From NCBI GenBank assembly GCA_018780145.1, contig JADMKA010000086.1, positions 1 through 49,970 of the forward strand: a DNA stretch of 49,970 nt, given 5' to 3'. The translations under genes were made by a program, and so were the position numbers. The stretch comes from Vitreoscilla sp. (lineage in GTDB: Bacteria; Pseudomonadota; Gammaproteobacteria; Burkholderiales; Burkholderiaceae_C). Below are positions 8,111 to 48,453 of this stretch, piece after piece. Position 1 is the stretch's first letter, and every line of letters starts with the position of its first letter. Under the pieces are notes generated by a model. The model searched no databases, was not told where the DNA came from, and worked only from the letters and a program-made list of their open reading frames with translations.

Positions 8111-9370
8111 ATGGACAAGCAGACACCCGCCGCCCCCACCCTGAGTTCACTGCACATCGACCGCCAGGCAGCGACGCGAGGGCGCCGGCGCTGGCCTTGG
8201 GTCGCCGGAGCGCTCGTGATCGCCGGCGTCGGCTTCGCGCTGCTGGCGCCCCGCCAGGCCGAGGTGCAGGCGGGCACGGTGCAGAGCGCCTACCCCACAC
8301 AACAGTACAGCCAGCTGGCCGCCTCGGGCTACGTGGTGGCGCAGCGCCGCGCCGCCGTGTCGTCCAAGGCGACGGGGCGGCTGGTGGAGCTGAACGTGCG
8401 CGAAGGCAGCGTGGTGAAGAAAGGGGACCTGCTGGCGCGTCTCGACGCCGCCGATGTCAGCGCCAACCTGGGTGTCAGCGTGGCCGCCGTGCGCCAGAGC
8501 GAGGCCGCAGCCAGGCAGGCCGAATCCAATCTCAAGCTGGCCCAGTCCCAGCAGGCCAATGCCGACGACGAGCTGAAGCGCGCACTGGCGCTGGCCGCCC
8601 AGGGCTTTCTTTCGCCGCAGGCGGTGGACACGGTACAGACCCGCGCCCGCAGCGCCGCTGCCAGCACCGCGGCTGCGCAGGCTGCGCTGGCCACGGCCCA
8701 GGCCGGCATCGCCCAGGCCCGGGCCCAGGTGACCGTGCAGCAGGTGAACAAGGATTCCACCGAGATCCGCGCGCCCTTCGACGGCGTGGTGCTGGTGAAG
8801 AACGCCAACGTCGGCGACCTGATCACGCCCTTCTCCAACGCGGCCGGCACCTCGGGCGCGGTGGTCACCATGGCCGACATGGGCACGCTGGAGGTGGAGG
8901 CCGACGTGTCGGAATCGAACGTCGGCAGGGTGTTGGTGGACCAGCCAGTGGAGATCGTGCTGGATGCCCTGCCCGATCTCCGCCTGCGCGGCAACGTGGC
9001 CCGCATCGTGCCCACCGTGGACCGGGCCAAGGCCACGGTGATGACCAAGATCCGCTTCGACCAGCTCGACCCGCGGATCCTTCCGGAGATGAGCGCCAAG
9101 GTGAGCTTTCTCTCCAGGCCGGCCACCGACGCGGACCAGAAGCCGGTCCTGGCGGTGAGCCCGAAGGCCCTGGCCGACCGGGACGGCAAGAAGGTGGTGT
9201 TCCGGATCGGCGCGGACAACAAGCTCGAGATGCTGCCCGTGACCCCGGGCCGCAGCCTGGGCGACGCGATCGAGGTGGCACCGGGCGCATTGCAGCGCGG
9301 CGACCGCATCGTGCTCAACCCGGCTGACAAGCTGGCGGCGGGCTCATCGGTCAGCGTGGCATCCAAATGA
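8111..9370 (+). CDS. MacA-like/HlyD-family periplasmic adaptor subunit
   Basis: A 419-residue membrane fusion protein. A single N-terminal membrane helix lies at about residues 28-47 (WVAGALVIAGVGFALLAP). The biotinyl-lipoyl half-motifs flank a long helical hairpin: GRLVELNVREGSVVKKGDLL before it and IRAPFDGVVLVKNANVGDLI after it. The hairpin is rich in alanine and glutamine (about residues 125-215). The beta-barrel and membrane-proximal parts follow. It anchors in the inner membrane and links the transporter to an outer-membrane channel. Its stop overlaps the start of the ATPase by four bases, so the genes are translationally coupled. No outer-membrane factor is encoded nearby. Confidence 0.9.
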   Translation: MDKQTPAAPTLSSLHIDRQAATRGRRRWPWVAGALVIAGVGFALLAPRQAEVQAGTVQSAYPTQQYSQLAASGYVVAQRRAAVSSKATGRLVELNVREGSVVKKGDLLARLDAADVSANLGVSVAAVRQSEAAARQAESNLKLAQSQQANADDELKRALALAAQGFLSPQAVDTVQTRARSAAASTAAAQAALATAQAGIAQARAQVTVQQVNKDSTEIRAPFDGVVLVKNANVGDLITPFSNAAGTSGAVVTMADMGTLEVEADVSESNVGRVLVDQPVEIVLDALPDLRLRGNVARIVPTVDRAKATVMTKIRFDQLDPRILPEMSAKVSFLSRPATDADQKPVLAVSPKALADRDGKKVVFRIGADNKLEMLPVTPGRSLGDAIEVAPGALQRGDRIVLNPADKLAAGSSVSVASK

Positions 9371-10059
9371 GCCCGGCGCCCCTCATCCGGATCCGCTCGT
9401 TGAGCAAGGCCTACCAGCGTGGTGGCCAGGCGATCCCCGTGCTGCTGGACATCAACCTGGATGTGCAGGCCGGCGAGTTCGTCGCGCTGATGGGCCCGTC
9501 GGGCTCCGGCAAGAGCACGCTGCTCAACCTCATCGCCGGCATCGACCAGCCCAGCAGCGGCACCATCGAGATCGCGGGCGTGGACATCGCCACGCTGGGC
9601 GAGGGCCGGCTGGCCGACTGGCGCGCCGCCAACGTCGGGTTCATCTTTCAGTTCTACAACCTGCTGCCGGTGCTCACCGCGTTCGAGAACGTGGAACTGC
9701 CGCTGCTGTTGACCAGGCTGTCGTCGCGCGAACGGGCCCAGCGCGTGGAGGCCCTGCTGAGCCTGGTGGGCCTGACCGACCGCGCCGATCACCGCCCCAA
9801 CGAGCTTTCCGGCGGCCAGCAGCAGCGCGTGGCGATCGCCCGCGCACTGGTGACCGACCCGCAGCTGATCGTCGCCGACGAACCCACCGGCGACCTGGAC
9901 CGTGCCACCGGCGAGGAGGTGCTGCACCTGATGGACCGCCTGGTGCGCGAACTGGGCAAAACGATCGTGATGGTCACCCACGACCCCAAGGCCGCCGCCC
10001 GCGCGCAGCGCATGGTGCACCTGGAAAAAGGCGTGCTGGTGGACGAGATGCCCGCCTGA
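9367..10059 (+). CDS. ABC transporter ATP-binding protein (MacB/LolD type)
   Basis: A 230-residue nucleotide-binding subunit. Walker A is GPSGSGKST at residues 43-51, the Q-loop lies in [11 protein letters not shown], the signature is LSGGQQQR at about 147-154, Walker B is [12 protein letters not shown] at about 166-177, and the switch histidine is in VMVTHD. This pattern is typical of the ATPases that power FtsX-fold (type VII) systems such as MacB and LolCDE. It overlaps the adaptor gene by four bases and is one base from the first permease, so it powers the neighbouring permease pair. Confidence 0.95.
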
Positions 10060-10060
10060 C

Positions 10061-11218
10061 ATGTTCCTGCTCAAGCTGCTCCTGCTGAACGCCTTCCGGC
10101 ACAAGCTGCGCACCGGCCTGACGATCGTCGGCCTGGTGGTGGCGGTCTGCTCCTTCGGCCTGCTGCGCACGCTGATCGACGCCTGGTATGCCGGCGTGGA
10201 GGCCAGCTCGAGCACGCGGCTGGTCACCCGCAGCGCGGTGTCGCTGACCTTTCCGCTGCCGCTCAGTTATGTGCAGCGCCTGAAGGCGGTGGACGGCGTG
10301 ACCACGATCTCCTGGGCCAATTGGTTCGGCGGTGTCTACCAGACCGAGCGCAATTTCTTCCCGCAGTTTGCAGTGGAGCCGTCGACCTACCTGGCGCTCT
10401 ACCCGGAGTACCGCCTGAGCGAGGACGAGAAACAGGCCTTCCTGCGCGACCGGCAAGGCGCCATCGTCGGCCGCAAGCTGGCCAACACCTACGGCTGGAA
10501 GATCGGTGACCAGATCCCCCTGCGCGGCACCATCTACCCGGGCACCTGGAGCTTCACGCTGCGCGGCATCTGGGACGGTGCCGAAGCCAAGACCGACGAG
10601 TCGCAGATGTTGTTCCACTGGGCCTACCTCAACGAGAGCCTGCGCAAAAAGTACGGGCCTCGGGCCGACGCGGTCGGCGTCTACATGCTGGGCATCGACG
10701 AGCCGCAGAACGCCGCACTGATCTCGCAGCGCGTGGACGCACAGTTCAAGAACTCGCAGGCCGAGACCATGACCGAAACCGAGGCCGCCTTCCAGCTCAG
10801 TTTCGTCTCGATGAGCGAGGCCATCCTGGTGGCCATCGAGGCGGTGAGCTACATCATCATCGTCATCATCATGGCGGTGATGGCCAACACCATGACGATG
10901 ACCGCCCGCGAGCGCATGGCCGAGTACGCCACGCTGAAGGCCTTGGGGTTTTCGCCAGGCTTCGTGGTGCGCCTGCTGTTCGGCGAGAGCATGCTGATCG
11001 CACTCATCGGCGGCGGCCTGGGCCTGGCACTCACCTTCCCCGCCGTCGCCGCCATTGCCGGGGCATTGGGTTCGTTCCTGCCGGTGTTCCAGGTGCAGGC
11101 CACCACGGTGGCGCTGCAATGCAGCGCGGCAGGGGTCGTCGGCATCGTCGCCGCGGCCTGGCCGGCCTGGCGCATGAGCCGGATCGACATCGTGCAGGGC
11201 TTGAGGCACATCGGATGA
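10061..11218 (+). CDS. ABC transporter permease, FtsX/MacB family (first of two)
   Basis: A 385-residue inner-membrane protein. It has one membrane helix near residues 15-38, a large periplasmic domain (about 40-255, MacB_PCD type) and three C-terminal helices: [20 protein letters not shown], then [20 protein letters not shown], then [16 protein letters not shown]. The conserved cytoplasmic stretch [14 protein letters not shown] is the coupling-helix motif of this family. Its stop overlaps the start of the second permease by four bases. The two permeases probably form a heterodimer, unlike MacB, where the permease is fused to the ATPase and works as a homodimer. The exported substrate is unknown. 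Confidence 0.92.
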
Positions 11219-12384
11219 AGGCGATCCCGCTCAGCTACATCGCGCGCAACCTGTGGGTCCGGCGGGTCACCACCCTGCTCACGGCCGGTGGCATGGCACT
11301 GGTCGTCTACACCTTCGCCACCGTGCTGATGATGAGCGAGGGCATCCGTGCCACGCTGGTGGCCACCGGCCAGCCCGACAACGTGCTGGTGCTGCGCAAG
11401 GGGGCCGGCAGCGAGATCAACAGCGGCATCGACCGGCTTCAGGCCAGCATCCTGGAGACGCTGCCCGGCATCGCCACCGGGCGCCAGGGCGAGTTGCTGG
11501 TCTCCAAGGAAACCGTGGTGCTGAACTCGCTGCCCAAGCTCGGCAGCGGCAAGCCCAGCAACGTGACCATGCGCGGCACCGGCCCGGCCGGGCTGGCACT
11601 GCGGCCGCAGGTCACCCTGGCCGAGGGGCGATGGTTCCGGCCCGGCACGGCGGAGATCGCCGTCGGCCGCGCGGTCGCTGGCGGGTTCGACGGTGCGCAG
11701 CTCGGCCAGACACTGCGCTTCGGCAGCCGCGACTGGCTGATCGTCGGGGTCTTCGACGCGGCGAAGACGGCCTTCGACTCCGAGATTTGGGGTGACGCCG
11801 ATCTGATGATGCAGTCCTACCGGCGCGGGGCGTACTCGACCGTCGTCTTCCGCCTGGCCGATCCCGGCAGCATCGACGCGCTGCAAGCCACCATCGCCGC
11901 CGACCCGCGCCTGCAGGTCGAGGCCAAGCCCGAGGTGCGCTTCTACGAGGAGCAGAGCGAGGCGCTGGCGAAGTTCATCAGCATCCTCGGTACGGTGCTG
12001 AGCGTGATCTTCTCGATCGGCGCCATCGTCGGCGCCATGATCACCATGTTCGCCGCCGTGGCCCAGCGCACCGGCGAGATCGGCACGCTGCGCGCACTGG
12101 GTTTCAGGCGCGGCGCGGTGCTGGTGGCCTTCCTGGCCGAGAGCCTGCTGCTGAGCGTGGTGGGAGGCCTGCTCGGCCTGGCCGGCGCCAGCCTGATGCA
12201 GACGGTGAACATCTCCACCACCAACTTCCAGACCTTCGCCGAACTGGCCTTCCAGTTCAAGCTGACCCCCGGCATCGCGATCGAGACCATGGTCTTCGCG
12301 CTGGCGATGGGCTTCGTCGGCGGCTTCATCCCCGCCTGGCGGGCCGCGCGCCTGAAGATCGTCGACGGGTTGCGGGCCGCCTGA
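11215..12384 (+). CDS. ABC transporter permease, FtsX/MacB family (second of two)
   Basis: A 389-residue partner of the preceding permease with the same layout: one N-terminal helix (TTLLTAGGMALVVYTFATVL), a periplasmic domain (about 45-265), then three C-terminal helices. The coupling motif is QRTGEIGTLRALGFRRGAVL, and the end PAWRAARLKIVDGL matches the end of the first permease in type ([13 protein letters not shown]). The start is fixed by the four-base overlap with the upstream gene. Last gene of the adaptor-ATPase-permease-permease operon; 19 bases separate it from the convergent thioesterase gene. Confidence 0.92.
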   Translation: MKAIPLSYIARNLWVRRVTTLLTAGGMALVVYTFATVLMMSEGIRATLVATGQPDNVLVLRKGAGSEINSGIDRLQASILETLPGIATGRQGELLVSKETVVLNSLPKLGSGKPSNVTMRGTGPAGLALRPQVTLAEGRWFRPGTAEIAVGRAVAGGFDGAQLGQTLRFGSRDWLIVGVFDAAKTAFDSEIWGDADLMMQSYRRGAYSTVVFRLADPGSIDALQATIAADPRLQVEAKPEVRFYEEQSEALAKFISILGTVLSVIFSIGAIVGAMITMFAAVAQRTGEIGTLRALGFRRGAVLVAFLAESLLLSVVGGLLGLAGASLMQTVNISTTNFQTFAELAFQFKLTPGIAIETMVFALAMGFVGGFIPAWRAARLKIVDGLRAA

Positions 12385-26875: not shown

Positions 26876-28090
26876 GTGAACCTCAAGGCCCGCCTGAACC
26901 TTGCGCTGGGCGCCTGCGCGCTGATCGCGGTGCTGGCGGCCGCGCTGGTGATGCACCACCAGCTGCGCGAGCGCGCGCTGGCCGAGGTGCAGCGCGAGGC
27001 CGAGCTGCACATGGAAGCCGCCACCGCCTTGCGCAGCTACACCGGCGACCATGTCCGCCCACTGCTGAACACCGACCCGGCCCACTTCCAACAGGCCGCC
27101 GTGCCCTCCTTCGCGGCCACCACCGCGATGCGCCTGCTGCACGAACGCTACCCCGGCGTCAGCTACCGCGAGGTCGCGCTGAACCCAACCAACCCGGCCA
27201 ACCGCGCCACCGGCGTGCATGAAGAGATCGTGCGCACGCTGCGCGAAGGCCACGCCGACACGCTGCAGCGCTTCACCAGCGAGGGCGGCCGCGAGATGCT
27301 CTACGTGGCCAAGCCGCTGCACGTGGCCGAGGCGAACTGCCTGGCCTGCCACGGGCGCCCGCAGGACGCACCGCCCGCGATGCTCGCGGTCTACGGGGCC
27401 CAGGGCGGCTTCGGCTGGAAGATGGGCGAAACCGTCGGCGCGCAGGTCGTGGCCGTGCCGCTGACCCTGCCGCTGCAGCGCGCTGGCCAGGCTCTCGGCC
27501 AGTTCCTGGCGGTCGCCGTCGCGGTGGTGCTGGCGGTGTTCCTGGCGCTGAACGCGATGCTGCGCAAGGTGCTGCTGAACCCCATCGCCAGCCGCCAGGG
27601 CGAGCTGCAGCGCCAGGCGATGGAAGACGCCTTGACCGGCGCCATCAACAGGCGCGGCCTGCACGAGTTCGCCGAGGCCGCCCTCGGCCACGCCCGCGCC
27701 GAGGGCGGCGCGCTGTCGATCGTGCTGTTCGACATCGACCACTTCAAGCAGGTCAACGACCGCTTCGGCCACGCGGCGGGCGATGCCGTGCTGCGCGAGC
27801 TGGTCCGGCGCATCCACGCCCGCATCCGCGCCGACGACCTGCTGGGCCGCCTGGGCGGCGACGAGTTCGCCCTCGTGCTGCCGCAGGCCACGCTGCACCA
27901 GGCCCACCAAGTGGCCACGCAGCTGCACGCCACGCTGCAGGGCGAGCTGTATCCGCACGGCCAACCGGTGGGCTTCAGCATGGGCCTGGCCCAATGGGAC
28001 GGCCACGAAGATCTGGCCAGCCTGTTCGCCCGCGCCGACAAGGCCCTCTATGCCGCCAAGGAGGCCGGCCGCGGCCGCGTCAGCTCGTGA
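26876..28090 (+). CDS. Diguanylate cyclase with DUF3365 sensor carrying a c-type haem motif
   Basis: A 404-residue membrane sensor. Helix 1 is at about residues 9-26 (LALGACALIAVLAAALVM). A periplasmic DUF3365 (Tll0287-like) domain spans about 30-195, with CLACHGRP at 155-162. CxxCH is the covalent haem c attachment motif. Helix 2 is at about 205-228 (LGQFLAVAVAVVLAVFLALN). The GGDEF domain spans about 245-400: the active-site motif GGDEF is at 327-331, with the inhibitory RxxD (RADD) five residues before it. It should make c-di-GMP in response to redox state, oxygen or nitric oxide sensed by a haem. The GTG start at 26876 fits because the signal helix follows directly. Confidence 0.9.
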   Translation: MNLKARLNLALGACALIAVLAAALVMHHQLRERALAEVQREAELHMEAATALRSYTGDHVRPLLNTDPAHFQQAAVPSFAATTAMRLLHERYPGVSYREVALNPTNPANRATGVHEEIVRTLREGHADTLQRFTSEGGREMLYVAKPLHVAEANCLACHGRPQDAPPAMLAVYGAQGGFGWKMGETVGAQVVAVPLTLPLQRAGQALGQFLAVAVAVVLAVFLALNAMLRKVLLNPIASRQGELQRQAMEDALTGAINRRGLHEFAEAALGHARAEGGALSIVLFDIDHFKQVNDRFGHAAGDAVLRELVRRIHARIRADDLLGRLGGDEFALVLPQATLHQAHQVATQLHATLQGELYPHGQPVGFSMGLAQWDGHEDLASLFARADKALYAAKEAGRGRVSS

Positions 28091-41394: not shown

Positions 41395-42444
41395 ATGGCG
41401 AGAAGTTGGGTACCGGTGTCCGTGCTGCTCGCCCTGGCCTGCGTGCAGGCGGCGGCGGCGCCGATGTTGCGCGTGCTGGCGTGGCCCGGCTATGCAGAGC
41501 CCGAGGTCGTGCTCGAGTTCGAGTCCAGGACGGGCGCTCGTGTCGAACTGACGGTGATCGACACCGACGAATCGATGTGGCAGAAGCTCAACGCCAACGG
41601 GGGCACCGATTTCGACGTGTTCGCGGTGAACGTCGCCGAGTTGCAGCGCTACATCCGGGCCCAGTTGGTGCGGCCGGTGGATCCCGCTCTGATCCCGGCC
41701 ATCCGGACACAGCAACCGCGCTTCCGGCAGCGCACCGCGATTCCGGGGCTGGTGCACACGGCCGGTGGCGTGGCGCAAAGTTACGCGATCCCGTTCACCT
41801 ACTCCGAGATGGGCCTGATCTACGACAAGCGCCAGGTCAGCTCCCCCCCGGTCTCGATCGCGGCGCTGTGGGACAAGCGCTACCAGGGCAAGGTGCTGGC
41901 CTACAGTGGGGGCACGCACAACTTTTCGCTCGCCGCCCAGATGCTCGGGGCGCCGTCGCCGTTCAAGATCGAGGCGGCCATGTGGCCGCGCGCAGTGGAT
42001 GCCCTGATCGATCTGCGGCGCAACGCGCTGGGCTTCTACAACCAGCCCGAGGAGTCGATCGAGCTCTTCCGGCGCCACGGCGCGGCGCTGATGTACGCCA
42101 ACTACGGAACGCAGCAGCTGCATCTGCTGAAGGCCCAGGGGGTCGATGCGGGCTATGTGGTTCCGCGCGAAGGCGCTCTGGCGTGGCTCGACTGCTGGGC
42201 CATCACACGCCATGCCCGTGACCCCGGGCTGGCCCATGCCTGGATCGACATGCTGCTGGGCGAACAGGCAAGCCGCTTGCTGGTCCAGCGCCAGGGGCTG
42301 GCCAACACCACCAGCGAATCGGATTCGAGCCGGCCCGAGGTGCGCCTACTCTGGCTTGAACCGGTCGAAGACGCCGGTCGGCGGGAGTCCTTGTGGGCGC
42401 GCATTCGGTCCGGTGATCGCGCGTCGCGGGTGCTGGCGCCATGA
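41395..42444 (+). CDS. PotD/PotF-like periplasmic binding protein, coupled to a diguanylate cyclase
   Basis: A 349-residue periplasmic solute-binding protein of the polyamine-binding type. Signal peptide about residues 1-22 (VSVLLALACVQAAAAP). LRVLAWPGYAEPEVVLEFES then corresponds to the first strand of PotF/PotD. Further blocks are NGGTDFDVFAVNVAELQRYI, SYAIPFTYSEMGLIYDK and MYANYGTQQLHLL. Ligand residues cannot be verified without an alignment, so polyamine is only one option. No permease or ATPase gene is near. Instead its stop overlaps the start of a GGDEF protein by four bases, so it is likely a sensory, not a transport, protein. Confidence 0.85.
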   Translation: MARSWVPVSVLLALACVQAAAAPMLRVLAWPGYAEPEVVLEFESRTGARVELTVIDTDESMWQKLNANGGTDFDVFAVNVAELQRYIRAQLVRPVDPALIPAIRTQQPRFRQRTAIPGLVHTAGGVAQSYAIPFTYSEMGLIYDKRQVSSPPVSIAALWDKRYQGKVLAYSGGTHNFSLAAQMLGAPSPFKIEAAMWPRAVDALIDLRRNALGFYNQPEESIELFRRHGAALMYANYGTQQLHLLKAQGVDAGYVVPREGALAWLDCWAITRHARDPGLAHAWIDMLLGEQASRLLVQRQGLANTTSESDSSRPEVRLLWLEPVEDAGRRESLWARIRSGDRASRVLAP

Positions 42445-44204
42445 AGCTGCCGCTGGGCATCGCCTGGCGCATCGGGCTCGCGCTGGCCTGCGTGGGCGTC
42501 CTGGCGGCCGCCCTGACCGGTTACTACGGCTACTCGGCCAGCCGCGCCATGCTGATCGCCGGCGCCGAGGAGCGCCTGCAGACAGCCACCCGGGTCCTGG
42601 TTCGGCAGCTGGCCGTGGGCCTGAACGGAACCGCGCGCGATGTGCGAATGCTGGCCGATCACCCGCAGTCTGCGCGCCTGCTCGCCCGCGCCGACCCGCG
42701 AGCACAGGAGATCACCGAGGACAACGTGGCCCTGCTGTTCGAACGCCTTCTGGACACCCATCCCGAGTACTTCCAGATGCGCCTGATCGACGTGACCGAC
42801 CATGGGCTGGAGCGCATCCGTGTCGATCGTGACGAGGCCGGCCTGGTGCGCGTGCGTGGCGACGACCTGCAGGAGAAGGGCCACTACCCGTATGTGTTCG
42901 AGACGATTCGGCTGCCCGCCGGCTCGGTGTACATGTCGCGTCCGGCCATCAACCACGAGGTGGGTGCCCATGCGGGTCTCGGCAAACCCTCGCTGCAAGT
43001 GGCAGCGCCCGTGCACGATGCGACCGGGCGGGTGCGTGGGGTCGTCGTCATCAACCTCGACCTGAACGGCCTGTTTGCCCAGTTGGCCGCCGACCTGCCA
43101 CCCGGCTTGCAGCTGTACCTGACCAACAGCGCTGGCGATTTCCTGGTCCACCCGGATCCCGCCAAGGCCTTCGCCTTCGATCGCGGGCGCGTGGCCCGGC
43201 TGCAGGACGCCTTCCCCGCCGCGCTCGCGATGACACGCGAGGGCAAGGAGCGGCAGGACGAGCTGGTCACCACGGCGTCGGTGGCAGGCCAGGGCGCGGT
43301 GGTGGCGGCCTTCTTGCGCCAGCCGCTCGGCGAACTGCAGCGCGACGACGAGTTCATCCTCGGGCTGGCCCAGCCGCTGAGCGTGGTGCTCCAGGAGAGC
43401 GAGCAACTCGGTGCGGCCAGCGCCCGCATCGTCGTGGCGTTCAGCGCGCTGGCCGTGTTGCTGGCAGCCCTGCTGGCGCGGGCCCTGACCCGGCCCCTGA
43501 ACCAGATGGTCGATGCGGTGCGGCGCATGGCCGACGGCGCTGCTGGCGGCCGCCTGCCCAGCGCACGCCAGGACGAGATCGGCCTGCTGGCGCGCAGCAT
43601 CGAGAACATGCAGCAGCAGATCCGCGCGCAGTTCGCCACGCTGGAGCAAAAGCAGGGCGAGCTCGACAGGCTGGCCAGCCACGACAGCCTGACGGGGCTG
43701 CACAACCGGCGTTTCTTTCTCGATCGGCTCGACCACGCGCTGGCGCATGCCAAACGCACCAACGGGCAGCTGGCGCTGCTGTTCATCGACCTCGACCACT
43801 TCAAGACCATCAACGACGAACTGGGCCATGCCGCGGGCGACCATGTGCTGCGCACCTTGGCGCAGCGCCTGAAGCATGTGGTGCGCGAGGTCGACACCGT
43901 CGCGCGCATCGGTGGCGACGAGTTCATCGTCCTGCTCGACGAGATCGCCGACATCGATGGGGTCACGCGCGTCGCGCACAAGGTGCTCGACGTACTGCTG
44001 CAGCCGGTGCGCCGTGGCGACGCGGATCTGGTGCTCGGGGCCAGCATCGGCGCCAGCCGCTACCCCAGCGACGGTACCGGTACCACCGAGTTGATCGCCG
44101 CCGCCGACCAAGCGATGTACCGCGCCAAATCGAGTGGGCGCAGGCGGATCTGCCTGGCGAGCGACGGCGATGCCACCGGCAGCGTGCCGGCGACCGTCAG
44201 CTGA
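42441..44204 (+). CDS. Membrane diguanylate cyclase: Cache-HAMP-GGDEF
   Basis: A 587-residue sensor. Helix 1 is at about residues 9-30 (WRIGLALACVGVLAAALTGY). A large periplasmic double-Cache domain spans about 35-325 (ERIRVDRDEAGLVRVRGDDL, YVFETIRLPAGSVYMSRPAI). Helix 2 is at about 330-352, HAMP at about 352-405 and GGDEF at about 415-575. The catalytic GGDEF is at residues 491-495 and the inhibitory RxxD (REVD) lies at 482-485, so it should be an active, product-inhibited c-di-GMP synthase. It has no EAL domain. Overlap with the binding-protein gene means coupled synthesis, and direct contact of the loaded binding protein with the Cache domain is the likely mechanism. Convergent with yeiH, six bases apart. 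Confidence 0.92.
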   Translation: MKLPLGIAWRIGLALACVGVLAAALTGYYGYSASRAMLIAGAEERLQTATRVLVRQLAVGLNGTARDVRMLADHPQSARLLARADPRAQEITEDNVALLFERLLDTHPEYFQMRLIDVTDHGLERIRVDRDEAGLVRVRGDDLQEKGHYPYVFETIRLPAGSVYMSRPAINHEVGAHAGLGKPSLQVAAPVHDATGRVRGVVVINLDLNGLFAQLAADLPPGLQLYLTNSAGDFLVHPDPAKAFAFDRGRVARLQDAFPAALAMTREGKERQDELVTTASVAGQGAVVAAFLRQPLGELQRDDEFILGLAQPLSVVLQESEQLGAASARIVVAFSALAVLLAALLARALTRPLNQMVDAVRRMADGAAGGRLPSARQDEIGLLARSIENMQQQIRAQFATLEQKQGELDRLASHDSLTGLHNRRFFLDRLDHALAHAKRTNGQLALLFIDLDHFKTINDELGHAAGDHVLRTLAQRLKHVVREVDTVARIGGDEFIVLLDEIADIDGVTRVAHKVLDVLLQPVRRGDADLVLGASIGASRYPSDGTGTTELIAAADQAMYRAKSSGRRRICLASDGDATGSVPATVS

Positions 44205-44210
44205 TCGCCC

Positions 44211-45218
44211 TCACCCCAGCCACCACAGCCAGCCCAGCACCAACCCCGCCAGGAAGACCGTCTCGCCGGCCATCAACAGCACCGGCTTCAAGCCCACGGT
44301 GGCCAGGTCGCGCAACTGGGTCTTCATGCCGATGGCGGCGATGGCCGCCACCAGGCAGGCACGGGAGAGTTCGCTGGCACCGGCCTGGATGGCGGGTGGC
44401 ACGATGCCGGTGCTGTTGACCGCGACCAGCAGCGCGAATGCGACGGCGAAACCAGGCAGCAGCGGCGGGCGCGGGCCGTCGGTGGCGCCACGTGCGCGCG
44501 TCATCGCAGCGGCCAGCATGATCACCGGCAGCAGCATGGCCACCCGTGTGAGCTTGACCAGCGTGGCCACGTCGCCGGTCTCGTGCGAGAGGCTGTAGCC
44601 GGCCCCCACCACCTGGGCCACGTCGTGGATGGTGGCACCCAGGAAGACGCCGGCGGCGTGGTCGGACAGGCCCAGGGCTCGGGCCAGCATCGGGTAGGCG
44701 ATCATGGCCAACGTGGAAAGTGCGCTGACACCGATCACCGTGAACAGCGTGGCGCGCTCCTTCTGCGGGTGTACCGGCAAGGCGGCCGAGAGCGCCAGCG
44801 CCGCGGAGGCGCCGCAGATCGCCGTGGCACCGCCGGTGAGCAGGCCGAACAAGGTCTGGAAGCCGAGCGCGCGGGCCACCAGCATCGACAGGGCAATGGT
44901 CAGCACCACCGACACCACCACCAGCGCCAACGGCTCCCAGCCCAGCGCCAGAACCTGGCCGCCGGTGATGCGCAGGCCCAGCAGCGCGATGCCGACGCGC
45001 AACACCTGGCGCGCTCCGAACTCGATGCCTGCCGCGCAAGCGCCCTCGCCCGACAGGAAGTTCATCGCCAGGCCGAGCAGCAGAGCGAACAGCATCACCG
45101 GCGCCCCGTAGTGCTGCGCCAGGAAGCTGGCCGCCGCAGCCACCACGCCGCAGGCCATCAACCCGGGGAAGTGTGTGCGGGCCCATCCAGGCCACCGGGT
45201 CAGCATGGCGGCGTCCAT
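44211..45218 (-). CDS. YeiH-family putative sulfate exporter (UPF0324)
   Basis: A 335-residue inner-membrane protein with about ten helices. Family blocks: APVMLFALLLGLAMNFLSGE, GIEFGARQVLRVGIALLGLR and LTGGATAICGASAALALSAA, plus FLGATIHDVAQVVGAGYSLS and AAIGMKTQLRDLATVGLKPV. The group is annotated as sulfate exporter from its link with sulfonate degradation; direct proof is scarce. It follows the Bug receptor gene with a gap of 16 bases and is the last gene of a three-gene operon with the beta-keto acid cleavage enzyme. Confidence 0.9.
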   Translation of the reverse strand: MDAAMLTRWPGWARTHFPGLMACGVVAAAASFLAQHYGAPVMLFALLLGLAMNFLSGEGACAAGIEFGARQVLRVGIALLGLRITGGQVLALGWEPLALVVVSVVLTIALSMLVARALGFQTLFGLLTGGATAICGASAALALSAALPVHPQKERATLFTVIGVSALSTLAMIAYPMLARALGLSDHAAGVFLGATIHDVAQVVGAGYSLSHETGDVATLVKLTRVAMLLPVIMLAAAMTRARGATDGPRPPLLPGFAVAFALLVAVNSTGIVPPAIQAGASELSRACLVAAIAAIGMKTQLRDLATVGLKPVLLMAGETVFLAGLVLGWLWWLG

Positions 45219-45234
45219 CGCGGCGCGCTCCGGC

Positions 45235-46227
45235 TCAGTCCGGTTTGAAGTTGATGGACTTCAGCAAGGATCCCTGGCGCTCGTAGGCGGTGCGCAGCGA
45301 CCTGGCCAGGTCCTCGCTGGTGGCGGAGGCCACGCCAGACTCCATGCCCAGGCTGCTCAAGCGCTCGCGCACCACCGGCGCCTGCATGGCCTTGTGCGCG
45401 AGCTCGCGCAGCCTCGCCTGTACGGCGGCCGGCACCTCCGGCGACACCCACAGGGCGACCCAGGCCACGGTGGTCATCGCCGGGTAGCCCAGTTCTTCGA
45501 AGGTGGGCACCTCGGGCAACGCCGCCAGGCGCTGCGGGGTGGTCACGGCATACGCCTTGACTTTCCCCGCCTTGATCATCGGCACCGAGGTGGCCGGGCC
45601 GTCGAACATGAACTGCACGTGGCCGCCGATCAGGTCCTGCAGCGCAGGCGGCGAACCCTTGTAGCCGACATGGCTCATGTCCAGCCCGGCCAGGCCGTTG
45701 AACTCCACGCCCAGCGTGTGCGAGATGGTGCCGGTGGTGTAGGAGGCCACGCTGATCTTGCCGGGGTTGGCCTTGATGTGGCCCACGGCCTCCTTCAGCG
45801 TCGTGGCCGGAACCTGAGGCGCGCCGACGAACACCAGGCCGCTGCGCGTCAGCTGCGCGATGGGCTTGATGTCCTTGAAGGGGTCGTAGCGCGGCTTGGC
45901 CAGGTGCGGGATCTCGCTGACGATGCCACTGATGTGCACCATCACGGTGTGCCCGTCGTGCGGCGCACCGAGCAGCTCGTTGACGCCCAGCATGCCCACC
46001 GCGCCGGCCTTGTTGTCGACGATCACCGGTTGGCCGCCCAGCATCGGTTGCATCGAATCCGCCAGCAGGCGGGCCACCACATCCAGCGTGCCACCGGGCG
46101 GGGCCGGCACGATGACGCGCAGCGGCTTGTCGGGGAAGGTCTGGGCACTGGCGGTGGCCACGGCGGCGCACCACAGCACGCCGCCCAGGGCGCGGGCGAT
46201 TCGGGTGGTCAGGGAGCTGCGGTTCAT
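45235..46227 (-). CDS. Bug/TctC-family tripartite tricarboxylate transporter receptor
   Basis: A 330-residue periplasmic solute-binding protein. It has a signal peptide (to about residue 29, ATASAQ), then FPDKPLRVIVPAPPGGTLDV, the Bug-family hallmark. VIVDNKAGAVGMLGVNELLG, GPATSVPMIKAGKVKAYAVT and FEELGYPAMTTVAWVALWVS follow in order. Bug proteins bind organic acids or amides and are greatly expanded in Burkholderiales. No TctA/TctB membrane parts are present, which is common: most Bug genes are orphans. It sits between the cleavage enzyme gene (35 bases) and yeiH (16 bases), in one operon. Confidence 0.94.
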   Translation of the reverse strand: MNRSSLTTRIARALGGVLWCAAVATASAQTFPDKPLRVIVPAPPGGTLDVVARLLADSMQPMLGGQPVIVDNKAGAVGMLGVNELLGAPHDGHTVMVHISGIVSEIPHLAKPRYDPFKDIKPIAQLTRSGLVFVGAPQVPATTLKEAVGHIKANPGKISVASYTTGTISHTLGVEFNGLAGLDMSHVGYKGSPPALQDLIGGHVQFMFDGPATSVPMIKAGKVKAYAVTTPQRLAALPEVPTFEELGYPAMTTVAWVALWVSPEVPAAVQARLRELAHKAMQAPVVRERLSSLGMESGVASATSEDLARSLRTAYERQGSLLKSINFKPD

Positions 46228-46262
46228 GTCTGTCTCCGGGGTCTTGTGGGTTCGGTTCGGCT

Positions 46263-47321
46263 TCAGGCGGCGCGGCGCAGCGGGTTGCCGCGCTGGCCCG
46301 GCTGGCGGTTGGGCGCGTAGCCCAGCGCGGCCAGGGTTTCGTCGGCATCGCGGTACTGGGTGCCGATCTTGTAGATGGCGCGTGCTTCCTGGCCGTTGGC
46401 CACTTCGCGGCCCAGCTCACGGGCGATGCGCACCGTCTGCTCGATCTGCTGCACCGAGCCCATGCGCTCGCCCTTGCGGCCCCAGAGGTTGTCCTCGATG
46501 CCCACGCGGGCATGCAGGCCCATCGCGATGGCCATGGTGTTCACCGGCAACACATTGCGCATGATGCTCTCCAGGGTCAGGCAAGCGCCGTCCGGGACGC
46601 GGCGGATGAACTCCATCATGTTGTAGGGGTTCGGGCCATCGAAGCCGCCGCCGATCGCCACCCAGGTCAGGTTGAACGGGCCGGTGAAGACCCCACGGCG
46701 GATCAGCCGCTCGACGGTCTCGAGCTGGGCCACGTTGGCAAGCTGGAAGTGCGGCTGGATGCCGGCGGCCTGCAGGCGGCGCAGGTGCTCCTCGACCCAG
46801 CCGGGGCCGGCCGGCACGGTCATTTCCCGGTAGGCCTGGTAGACGGCCGGCCGCTGGAAGGAGGTGCCGGCGTAGTCGTCCTCGCTCATCAGCTCCACCA
46901 CGTTCATCTGGTTGGTGTTGATGGCGATGGTGACCTGGTCGGGTTGGGGGGTCAGCTCGGCGAGCATGTGGCGGGCGTCGTCCGACAGCCACTTGGCATC
47001 GGCGCCCTCGCCTTCGGGCGAGAACGAGATCGAGCCGCCGACCTGCACGATCATGTCCGGCACGGCCGCCTTGACGCCGGCGATCAGCTCGTTGAACTTG
47101 GACAAGCGCTTGCTGCCCTTGCCGTCCAGCTCGCGCACATGCAGGTGCAGCACGGTGGCGCCGGCGTTGTAGCAGTCCACCGCCTTCTGGACCTGCTCTT
47201 CCATCGTCACCGCGATGTCTTCCGGAAAATCCGCCGGCTCCCATTCGGGGCCATAGGGCGCGACGGTGATGACCAGCTTCTCCTGGTTCTCGGGCAGCAG
47301 GGAATCGTCGAGGAAGTTCAT
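46263..47321 (-). CDS. Beta-keto acid cleavage enzyme (BKACE, DUF849)
   Basis: A 352-residue TIM-barrel enzyme. The zinc-binding site is formed by the HLH in TVLHLHVRELDGKGSKRL and an acidic residue in the N-terminal strand (VITVAPYG). The active-site blocks NVAQLETVERLIRRGVFTGP, WVAIGGGFDGPNPYNM and GLHARVGIEDNLWGRKGERM are all present. BKACE enzymes cleave a beta-keto acid with acetyl-CoA to acetoacetate and a new acyl-CoA; substrates range from carnitine-derived dehydrocarnitine to 5-amino-3-oxohexanoate. The start at 47321 has GGAGA upstream. First gene of the operon with Bug and YeiH; an AraC-type motif lies 102 bases upstream. Confidence 0.93.
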   Translation of the reverse strand: MNFLDDSLLPENQEKLVITVAPYGPEWEPADFPEDIAVTMEEQVQKAVDCYNAGATVLHLHVRELDGKGSKRLSKFNELIAGVKAAVPDMIVQVGGSISFSPEGEGADAKWLSDDARHMLAELTPQPDQVTIAINTNQMNVVELMSEDDYAGTSFQRPAVYQAYREMTVPAGPGWVEEHLRRLQAAGIQPHFQLANVAQLETVERLIRRGVFTGPFNLTWVAIGGGFDGPNPYNMMEFIRRVPDGACLTLESIMRNVLPVNTMAIAMGLHARVGIEDNLWGRKGERMGSVQQIEQTVRIARELGREVANGQEARAIYKIGTQYRDADETLAALGYAPNRQPGQRGNPLRRAA

Positions 47322-47422
47322 GCGGGTCTCCGGTCGAAAGGGCAGGTCACTGGCAGGGATGCGGGGCCAGTGGGCATGTCGACATTGTTCGAAACCCCGG
47401 CCCGCCGCGATGTGCGAGGGGC

Positions 47423-47449
47423 GACCGCGACTTGACCATTCGCGCCAGC
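47423..47449. promoter_or_regulatory. AraC-type motif upstream of the BKACE operon
   Basis: GACCGCGACTTGACCATTCG then CGCCAGC. It is nearly the same as the site at 35189 and similar to that at 41257. It lies 102 bases from the BKACE start codon and 24 bases from the divergent HlyD gene, so it could affect both. A GTCGAC palindrome lies 45 bases nearer the BKACE start. Confidence 0.6.
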
Positions 47450-47472
47450 CGGTAGCGGGCCAATAATCGGGC

Positions 47473-48453
47473 ATGCGCTGCCCGCCCGCCTCACCCGTGT
47501 CGCTGCATGCCGGCCTCGGCGCTGCGCTCCTGCCCTGTCTGCTCGCGGCCTGCCATGCGCCACCGCCCAGCGGCTGGTCCGGCTACGCCGAGGGCGAGGA
47601 CATCTACATCGCCGCGCCAGTGGCCGGGCGGCTGGCACGGCTGTCGGTGCAGGCTGGGCAGACGGTCGCCGCGGGCACGCCGCTGTTTGCGCTGGAGGCG
47701 ACCACCGAGCAGGCCGCACGCGCCGAGGCCGATGCCCGTGTGCTGGCCGCCCAGGCCCAGGCCAGCAACACCACCAAGGGCCGGCGGGCCGACGAGATCT
47801 CGGTGACCCGCGCCCAGCTCGCCCAGGCCCGTGCCCAGGCCGAGCGGGCCGACGCCGAGCTGAAGCGCCAGCAGGCGCTGGTGGCGCAGGAGTTCATCTC
47901 CCGCTCGCGCCTGGACGATGCCGCCACCGCCGTGGCCCAGGCGAAGGCCCGGGTCGCCGAACTCGAAGCCGCCTTGCGGGTGGCCGGCTTGCCGGCCCGC
48001 GCCGACGAGCGCGCCAGCGCCGAGGCGCTGGCCGAGAGTGCCCGCCAGGCCCAGCGGCAGCTGCAATGGCGCGAACAGGAAACCCAGCAGGCCGCACCGG
48101 CGGCGGGCCTGGTGCGCGACACCTTCTGGCGCGTCGGCGAGTACGTGCCGGCCGGCCAACCGGTCCTGGCGCTGCTGCCGCCTGCCGCGCGCAAGGCGCG
48201 CTTCTTCGTGCCCGAGGCCGAGGTGGGCGGCCTGGCTGCTGGGCAGGCGGTGACGCTGCACTGCGACGGCTGCGGCGCCCCCATCGCCGCCCGCATCAGC
48301 CGCATCGCCACACAGGCCGAGTACACGCCGCCGGTGATCTATTCCAACACCCAGCGCACGCGGATGGTGTTCATGGTCGAGGCACGGCCCGCGCCAGAAG
48401 ACGCGCCGCGGCTGCACCCGGGCCAGCCGCTGGACGTCCGGCGCGCGCCATGA
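47473..48453 (+). CDS. HlyD-family efflux adaptor, lipoprotein-like
   Basis: A 326-residue adaptor. The N-terminal segment ALLPCLLAACHAPPP ends in a lipobox-like cysteine (residue about 27), so it may be lipid-anchored and not held by a membrane helix. The lipoyl half-motifs are IYIAAPVAGRLARLSVQAGQ and AAPAAGLVRDTFWRVGEYVP; a long coiled coil (about 75-205) lies between. The membrane-proximal part has VTLHCDGCGAPIAARISRIA. It is the first gene of a three-gene or larger exporter operon (adaptor, ATPase, ABC-2 permease), resembling YhiI-type drug exporters. Confidence 0.9.
   Translation: MRCPPASPVSLHAGLGAALLPCLLAACHAPPPSGWSGYAEGEDIYIAAPVAGRLARLSVQAGQTVAAGTPLFALEATTEQAARAEADARVLAAQAQASNTTKGRRADEISVTRAQLAQARAQAERADAELKRQQALVAQEFISRSRLDDAATAVAQAKARVAELEAALRVAGLPARADERASAEALAESARQAQRQLQWREQETQQAAPAAGLVRDTFWRVGEYVPAGQPVLALLPPAARKARFFVPEAEVGGLAAGQAVTLHCDGCGAPIAARISRIATQAEYTPPVIYSNTQRTRMVFMVEARPAPEDAPRLHPGQPLDVRRAP

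Follow-up and report, generated by a model that had tools for sequence, protein, structure and literature searches.

What does a periplasmic binding protein do when its gene lies beside that of a diguanylate cyclase? The question is raised by a 49,970-nucleotide stretch of Vitreoscilla sp. DNA (the window), in which a gene for a PotD-superfamily substrate-binding protein (SBP) directly precedes one for a diguanylate cyclase (DGC). The initial annotation described a PotD-like SBP gene overlapping a Cache–HAMP–GGDEF gene by four bases, without transporter partner and in a layout similar to NspS–MbaA, and asked for a synteny search for the pair. It also suggested that the ligand could be the nutrient of a neighboring catabolic regulon. 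Our analysis confirmed the gene arrangement and the domain assignments. The two hints about the ligand, one from the name of the SBP and one from its neighbors, were not supported.

Table 1. Features of the SBP and DGC genes in the window.
Feature	Position	Strand	Evidence or remark
SBP gene: 349 aa, PotD-superfamily periplasmic binding protein	41395..42444	+	ATG start
Sec signal peptide (probable), SBP residues 1-22	41395..41460	+	by eye: hydrophobic stretch, AAA before PMLRV
His175 of SBP, invariant, replaces glutamate of PotF E185, PotD E171, NspS	41917..41919	+	81/81
SBP pocket motif N236-Y/F-G-x-Q-Q241, common to sister ABC SBPs	42100..42117	+	
SBP W264-x-D266-x-W268 motif	42184..42198	+	
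SBP/DGC gene overlap, 4 bp, ATGA	42441..42444	+	
DGC gene: 587 aa, TM-dCache-TM-HAMP-GGDEF	42441..44204	+	ATG start
Periplasmic sensor, dCache-like (PF21623), DGC residues 35-320	42543..43400	+	profile match to 2p7j/3lid, 1.6e-7
HAMP domain, DGC residues 344-396	43470..43628	+	2e-13
GGDEF domain, DGC residues 412-569	43674..44147	+	5.3e-50
RxxD inhibitory site, DGC R482-D485, intact	43884..43895	+	
GGDEF signature, DGC residues 491-495, intact	43911..43925	+	

The SBP–DGC pair and its conservation

The start codon of the DGC gene lies inside the ATGA that forms the last four bases of the SBP gene. Domain profile matches identified the flanking genes as a porin, a PF03601 membrane protein, TctC and a BKACE enzyme; beyond them lie a HlyD-like ORF and an ABC-ATPase ORF (names assigned by eye). 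No PotABC-type transporter partner was found among the genes flanking the pair. In the host genome, the DGC profile gave a full-length match with the window DGC alone (868 bits), and the next match (247 bits) covered the HAMP–GGDEF part only. Among 13 SBP_bac_8 matches in that genome, the window SBP was the only one close to a GGDEF match, as read by eye from lists in which some of the other 12 are near contig ends. The window carries a second diguanylate cyclase at 26876-28090 (+), in which GGDEF is combined with an N-terminal Tll0287-like domain (PF11845). At 44211-47474 (-), the TctC-type SBP adjoins the BKACE beta-keto acid cleavage enzyme and the PF03601 membrane protein; no TctA or TctB gene was noticed near it among the window ORFs read.

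The periplasmic part of the DGC passed the PF21623 cut-off (35.3 vs 27 bits) and stayed below that of Pfam dCache_1 (34.9 vs 45 bits). Part of its conserved dCache motif was also present in 2p7j. The predicted DGC structure (pLDDT 90.7, pTM 0.60) has a long helix (7-73) leading to an alpha/beta sensor, followed by a second long helix (313-364) that runs into HAMP. Foldseek with the whole model returned mainly GGDEF domains, along with some models of chemoreceptors, whereas a profile of the sensor alone matched 2p7j/3lid.

Scanning the genome collection with a threshold of E 1e-3 gave 317 stretches that encode some relative, of which the best 80 were retained. One locus (L082), whose SBP runs off the end of its stretch, was left out, giving 79 readable loci. 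The same dCache sensor directly followed the SBP in all 79, and GGDEF was in view in 77, the other two being cut by contig ends. In 76 of the 79, the frame was open and the two genes overlapped by 4 bp (ATGA, GTGA or TTGA); the exceptions were L070, with a broken frame, L096 and L100. The partner frame of L062 stops early. GGDEF and RxxD were both found in 72 of 72 full-length closed partners among the best 80 loci. These partners are 561-612 aa long, which leaves no space for an additional EAL domain. The DGC is predicted to synthesize c-di-GMP, the output that the initial annotation expected from a GGDEF-only partner with an intact RxxD site.

Searching 60 genomes, including the host, gave nine SBP matches below 1e-100; a DGC adjoins eight of the nine, and all eight pairs (the window and seven others) share the ATGA overlap. 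The ninth is L045, an SBP that stands alone. When 398 genomes of the phylum were sampled, the SBP relatives fell into three classes. Eight loci besides the window (469-489 bits) had a dCache partner, with GGDEF in view in seven; the eighth was L165/L199. L170-L173 (= L191-L194; 407-410 bits) and L175 had ABC ATPase and permease genes instead of a cyclase. L198 (= L174; 373 bits) had a diverged sensor–GGDEF partner with an ATGA overlap. These results indicated that SBP and DGC form a real, conserved two-gene unit.

Judging by the titles of their records, the best 80 of the 317 loci came mainly from Burkholderiales, Rhodocyclales and Gallionella/Sideroxydans relatives. The rest were one Vogesella and some MAGs placed only as Gammaproteobacteria, Proteobacteria or Pseudomonadota. 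In the family of the host, the SBP was found at 1e-40 in 29 of 250 sampled genomes, so the module is patchy there. Six stretches of viral contigs matched a pattern, and none encodes a relative.

For the neighbor genes, ORFs of 88 loci were clustered, and clusters recurring outside the pair were counted in the best 80. The large clusters consisted of the two pair genes, of ORFs antisense to or shifted against them, and of ORFs drawn in by likeness. No gene family outside the pair recurred in more than nine of these 80 loci (best 80 of 317). The local porin and catabolic genes are thus uninformative on the ligand, and deducing it from them was rejected. With flank lengths that vary, a permease resembling those of the compared transporters occurred in none of the best 80 loci, some ABC ATPase in nine. 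Additional ORFs with GGDEF or GGEEF motifs occurred at varying positions in 12 of the 80. Four loci (L099, L116, L118 and L125) have a 640-aa GGEEF-motif ORF close behind the DGC, about 1904 bases past the SBP stop.

Lineage of the SBP

The SBP belongs to SBP_bac_8 (Pfam, 3.5e-25). It resembles the NCBIfam PotF, YdcS and PotD models, with scores far under their equivalog cut-offs. Foldseek with its predicted structure (mean pLDDT 91.8) returned YdcS, PotF and PotD as top matches, and its nearest solved relatives are binders of the PotD/PotF/YdcS type at about 20% identity.

The nearest known system in layout is NspS–MbaA (PMC9993111, PMC8079147). That system and the window pair have in common a PotD-superfamily SBP, the absence of transporter genes, and an SBP gene that immediately precedes a c-di-GMP enzyme gene and overlaps it. 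Docking in the periplasm is presumed for both, in Vibrio cholerae and Sinorhizobium meliloti as in the window. MbaA has GGDEF and EAL, whereas the window partner has GGDEF only, behind dCache–HAMP. In sequence comparison, BLASTP aligned MbaA and the window DGC over the GGDEF region alone, and S. meliloti MbaA gave no Cache match at 1e-6. The window SBP and S. meliloti NspS are 23% identical over 254 columns and differ in lineage and pocket. A survey of NspS–MbaA homologues used a threshold of at least 30% identity and at least 60% coverage (PMC9993111), so a survey of this kind would probably miss the window SBP. Judged by sequence, the pair resembles NspS–MbaA in layout and is not a member of it. 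One candidate for S. meliloti NspS (H37) was rejected as a transporter SBP; NspS is found elsewhere in the same record. The S. meliloti record CP090106.1 (L203, L233), labelled plasmid pSymB, is 3.7 Mb long, contains nspS-mbaA, aceA and purD, and looks like the chromosome.

A tree was built from 33 hand-chosen rows. The 16 DGC-partnered SBPs and one orphan SBP (L045) formed a single clade with support 100/98, adjoining ABC transporter SBPs, and the clade kept this support after two long rows were removed. S. meliloti NspS grouped with PotD and PotF. Because NspS has a very long branch, its exact position is unsure, and its monophyly with the DGC-type SBPs was tested. A single clade of NspS and DGC-type SBPs, a group picked after the tree was known, was rejected (p-AU 0.0027).

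The nearest SBPs outside the DGC type, at 41-43% identity, were encoded in ABC transporter loci of five genomes (L191-L194 and L234; two family codes of these loci are f69 and f59). These sister SBPs share the pocket signature of the window SBP, but they sit beside an ATPase, two permeases and sugar-oxidation genes and have no cyclase. The ATPase, both permeases, an ILVD/EDD sugar-acid dehydratase and a xylose-dehydrogenase-like SDR were present in all five loci, a relative of the L191 aldose 1-epimerase in four and an aldehyde dehydrogenase in two. Family names were taken from Pfam and NCBIfam matches of single members: the dehydratase from L191 and L192, the SDR from L192 and L193, the epimerase from L191, and the aldehyde dehydrogenase from L191 and L193. 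The scores for L-arabinonate dehydratase (853.9, cut-off 882) and D-xylose 1-dehydrogenase (XylB; 354.9, cut-off 400) were below the NCBIfam cut-offs. Such a gene content is the set for oxidative pentose breakdown. Farther ABC relatives have an RbsD/FucU protein, an amidohydrolase and an aldo/keto reductase alongside in Rhizobium, and a gluconolactonase-family protein, an MR/MLE enzyme, SDRs and an FAA hydrolase in Phaeobacter. One ABC row (L195) was without clear catabolic context. With sugar-type genes around both sister and farther relatives, this SBP branch looks sugar-linked, and the gene content suggests an aldose as the ligand of the sister SBPs.

The binding pocket and the ligand

Pocket columns were taken from PotF ligand-contact positions, which we take to include E185 and D247; the alignment of DGC-type SBPs to PotF is approximate at about 20% identity. 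The NspS residue list of PMC9993111 supplied further columns. W30, Y33, W264 and D266 were kept in nearly all compared SBPs, polyamine binders included, and do not discriminate. In 81 of 81 DGC-type SBPs, His175 stands in place of the glutamate shared by PotF, PotD and NspS, and Asn236 (81/81) in place of an aromatic residue, Trp in PotF and PotD and Tyr in NspS. No acid was found in the column of PotF D247 and the NspS Asp in any of the 81. E. coli PotD has Ser there, so the loss of this acid by itself cannot exclude polyamines. Of the NspS polyamine-contact residues, the W and the W-x-D are retained in the DGC-type SBPs, and the Y233 and D236 columns are Asn and non-acidic, respectively, in all 81, again in an alignment at about 20% identity. 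Eight residues (N79, H175, N236, Q240, Q241, W264, D266 and W268) were present in 16/16 DGC-type and 4/4 sister ABC SBPs. A pocket with aromatic faces and Asn, Gln, His and Asp would fit a sugar.

The pair might still sense a polyamine or another amine, as an NspS–MbaA analogue whose partner only makes c-di-GMP. We consider this unlikely. Its nearest solved structures, the retained W30, Y33, W264 and D266, and the gene layout all agree with an amine sensor, but the shared glutamate and aromatic residue are replaced throughout, the SBP clade adjoins SBPs of aldose operons, and kinship with NspS was rejected. The polyamine ligand implied by the name PotD-like is disfavored by the same observations, and a sugar is more probably the ligand of the window SBP.

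The proposed co-receptor and its exceptions

Our preferred reading, to which we give a probability of about 0.6, is that a sugar-transporter SBP was recruited, separately from NspS, as a co-receptor of a c-di-GMP synthase; the ligand, the docking and the sign of the response are what we infer. By kinship, the SBP would descend from a lineage of ABC transporters for aldoses of the pentose type and not from that of NspS, and its ligand would most likely be a monosaccharide or a close derivative. The SBP would be secreted to the periplasm, close around this small ligand and dock on the dCache domain. From there, the second transmembrane helix and then HAMP would relay the signal to the GGDEF dimer. 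In this way the extracellular ligand would set c-di-GMP synthesis, and the product would feed back at RxxD.

Alignments A4 (the window and 59 of the 80 loci) and A5 (the window and 43 of the 80) were prepared. Over 44 pairs, SBP and sensor distances were correlated (r 0.76). The partial correlation of SBP and sensor given GGDEF was 0.55 and that of SBP and GGDEF given the sensor was 0.30, a modest difference that includes shared ancestry. The correlation faintly suggests contact between SBP and sensor.

The docked SBP could instead mainly restrain the cyclase, with the ligand releasing the restraint. The periplasmic protein YfiR restrains its cyclase. HmsC, also periplasmic, does so too (PMC8846402). 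The sequence leaves the sign of the response unfixed, and the tight gene overlap would yield matched protein amounts. The SBP fold and the conserved pocket favor a ligand role, though they are silent on the sign, and we regard a mainly restraining SBP as improbable.

Several loci depart from the usual pair. The orphan SBP of the DGC-type clade (L045 7995-9005, G039) has no DGC alongside, and a search of its genome with the DGC profile gave no full-length match. An acetyltransferase-like ORF (by eye) is next on the same strand. In L043 7992-9212 (G001), an in-frame TAG interrupts the SBP gene, and the DGC gene that overlaps it is intact, so the DGC may work alone. dCache domains often bind ligands directly, and that of the DGC may itself bind one. 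It is quite unlikely, though, that the dCache domain senses its own ligand beside an SBP that scavenges or feeds an unlinked transporter: the orphan SBP and the broken SBP gene agree with this, but the pair recurs in all 79 readable loci, overlapping in 76, and none of the 80 has a nearby permease (best 80 of 317).

In L199 (= L165) 8975-12058 (G496), the partner is a dCache–HAMP–GAF–GGDEF–EAL protein of 1027 aa, and by its domain composition the output end of the module is exchanged there. In L197 7389-9915 (G404), a distant SBP overlaps a 463-aa GGDEF protein without a recognized sensor domain, possibly another recruitment.

In co-receptors of the LuxP–LuxQ type, too, an SBP acts upon a Cache-type periplasmic domain, as proposed for the window pair; they differ in having a histidine kinase output and an SBP of a different family. 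STM1987 and ArtI are not, to our knowledge, an overlapping gene pair. They resemble the window pair in combining an SBP with a dCache c-di-GMP protein, but the ligand differs: the Salmonella L-arginine response requires STM1987, a dCACHE_1 c-di-GMP protein, and the periplasmic SBP ArtI (PMC8846402). SBPs activate diguanylate cyclases and phosphodiesterases among other receptors, as stated in PMC9602780, so the general kind is already known. A description of an SBP–dCache–DGC pair was not found in the literature searched (titles and abstract openings of open-licence papers). SBP-gated c-di-GMP enzymes as such are known, and this lineage of them is not previously described in that literature.

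A broader statement can be made more tentatively, at somewhat less than even odds. The pair would be a widespread co-receptor, mainly betaproteobacterial and so far without a name, for which the SBP belonging to a sugar importer was recruited a single time, apart from NspS, so that c-di-GMP synthesis would obey an extracellular aldose. It would represent a convergent second solution to gating c-di-GMP signaling by an SBP, with an exchangeable output end, as in L199. The signal of most c-di-GMP enzymes is unknown. Here, ligand specificity should reside in a separate, presumably soluble SBP, so that the signal could be named for a whole family, which spans genomes of Burkholderiales, Rhodocyclales, Gallionella/Sideroxydans and further proteobacteria. 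If true, SBP gating of c-di-GMP would have evolved more than once out of transporter parts.
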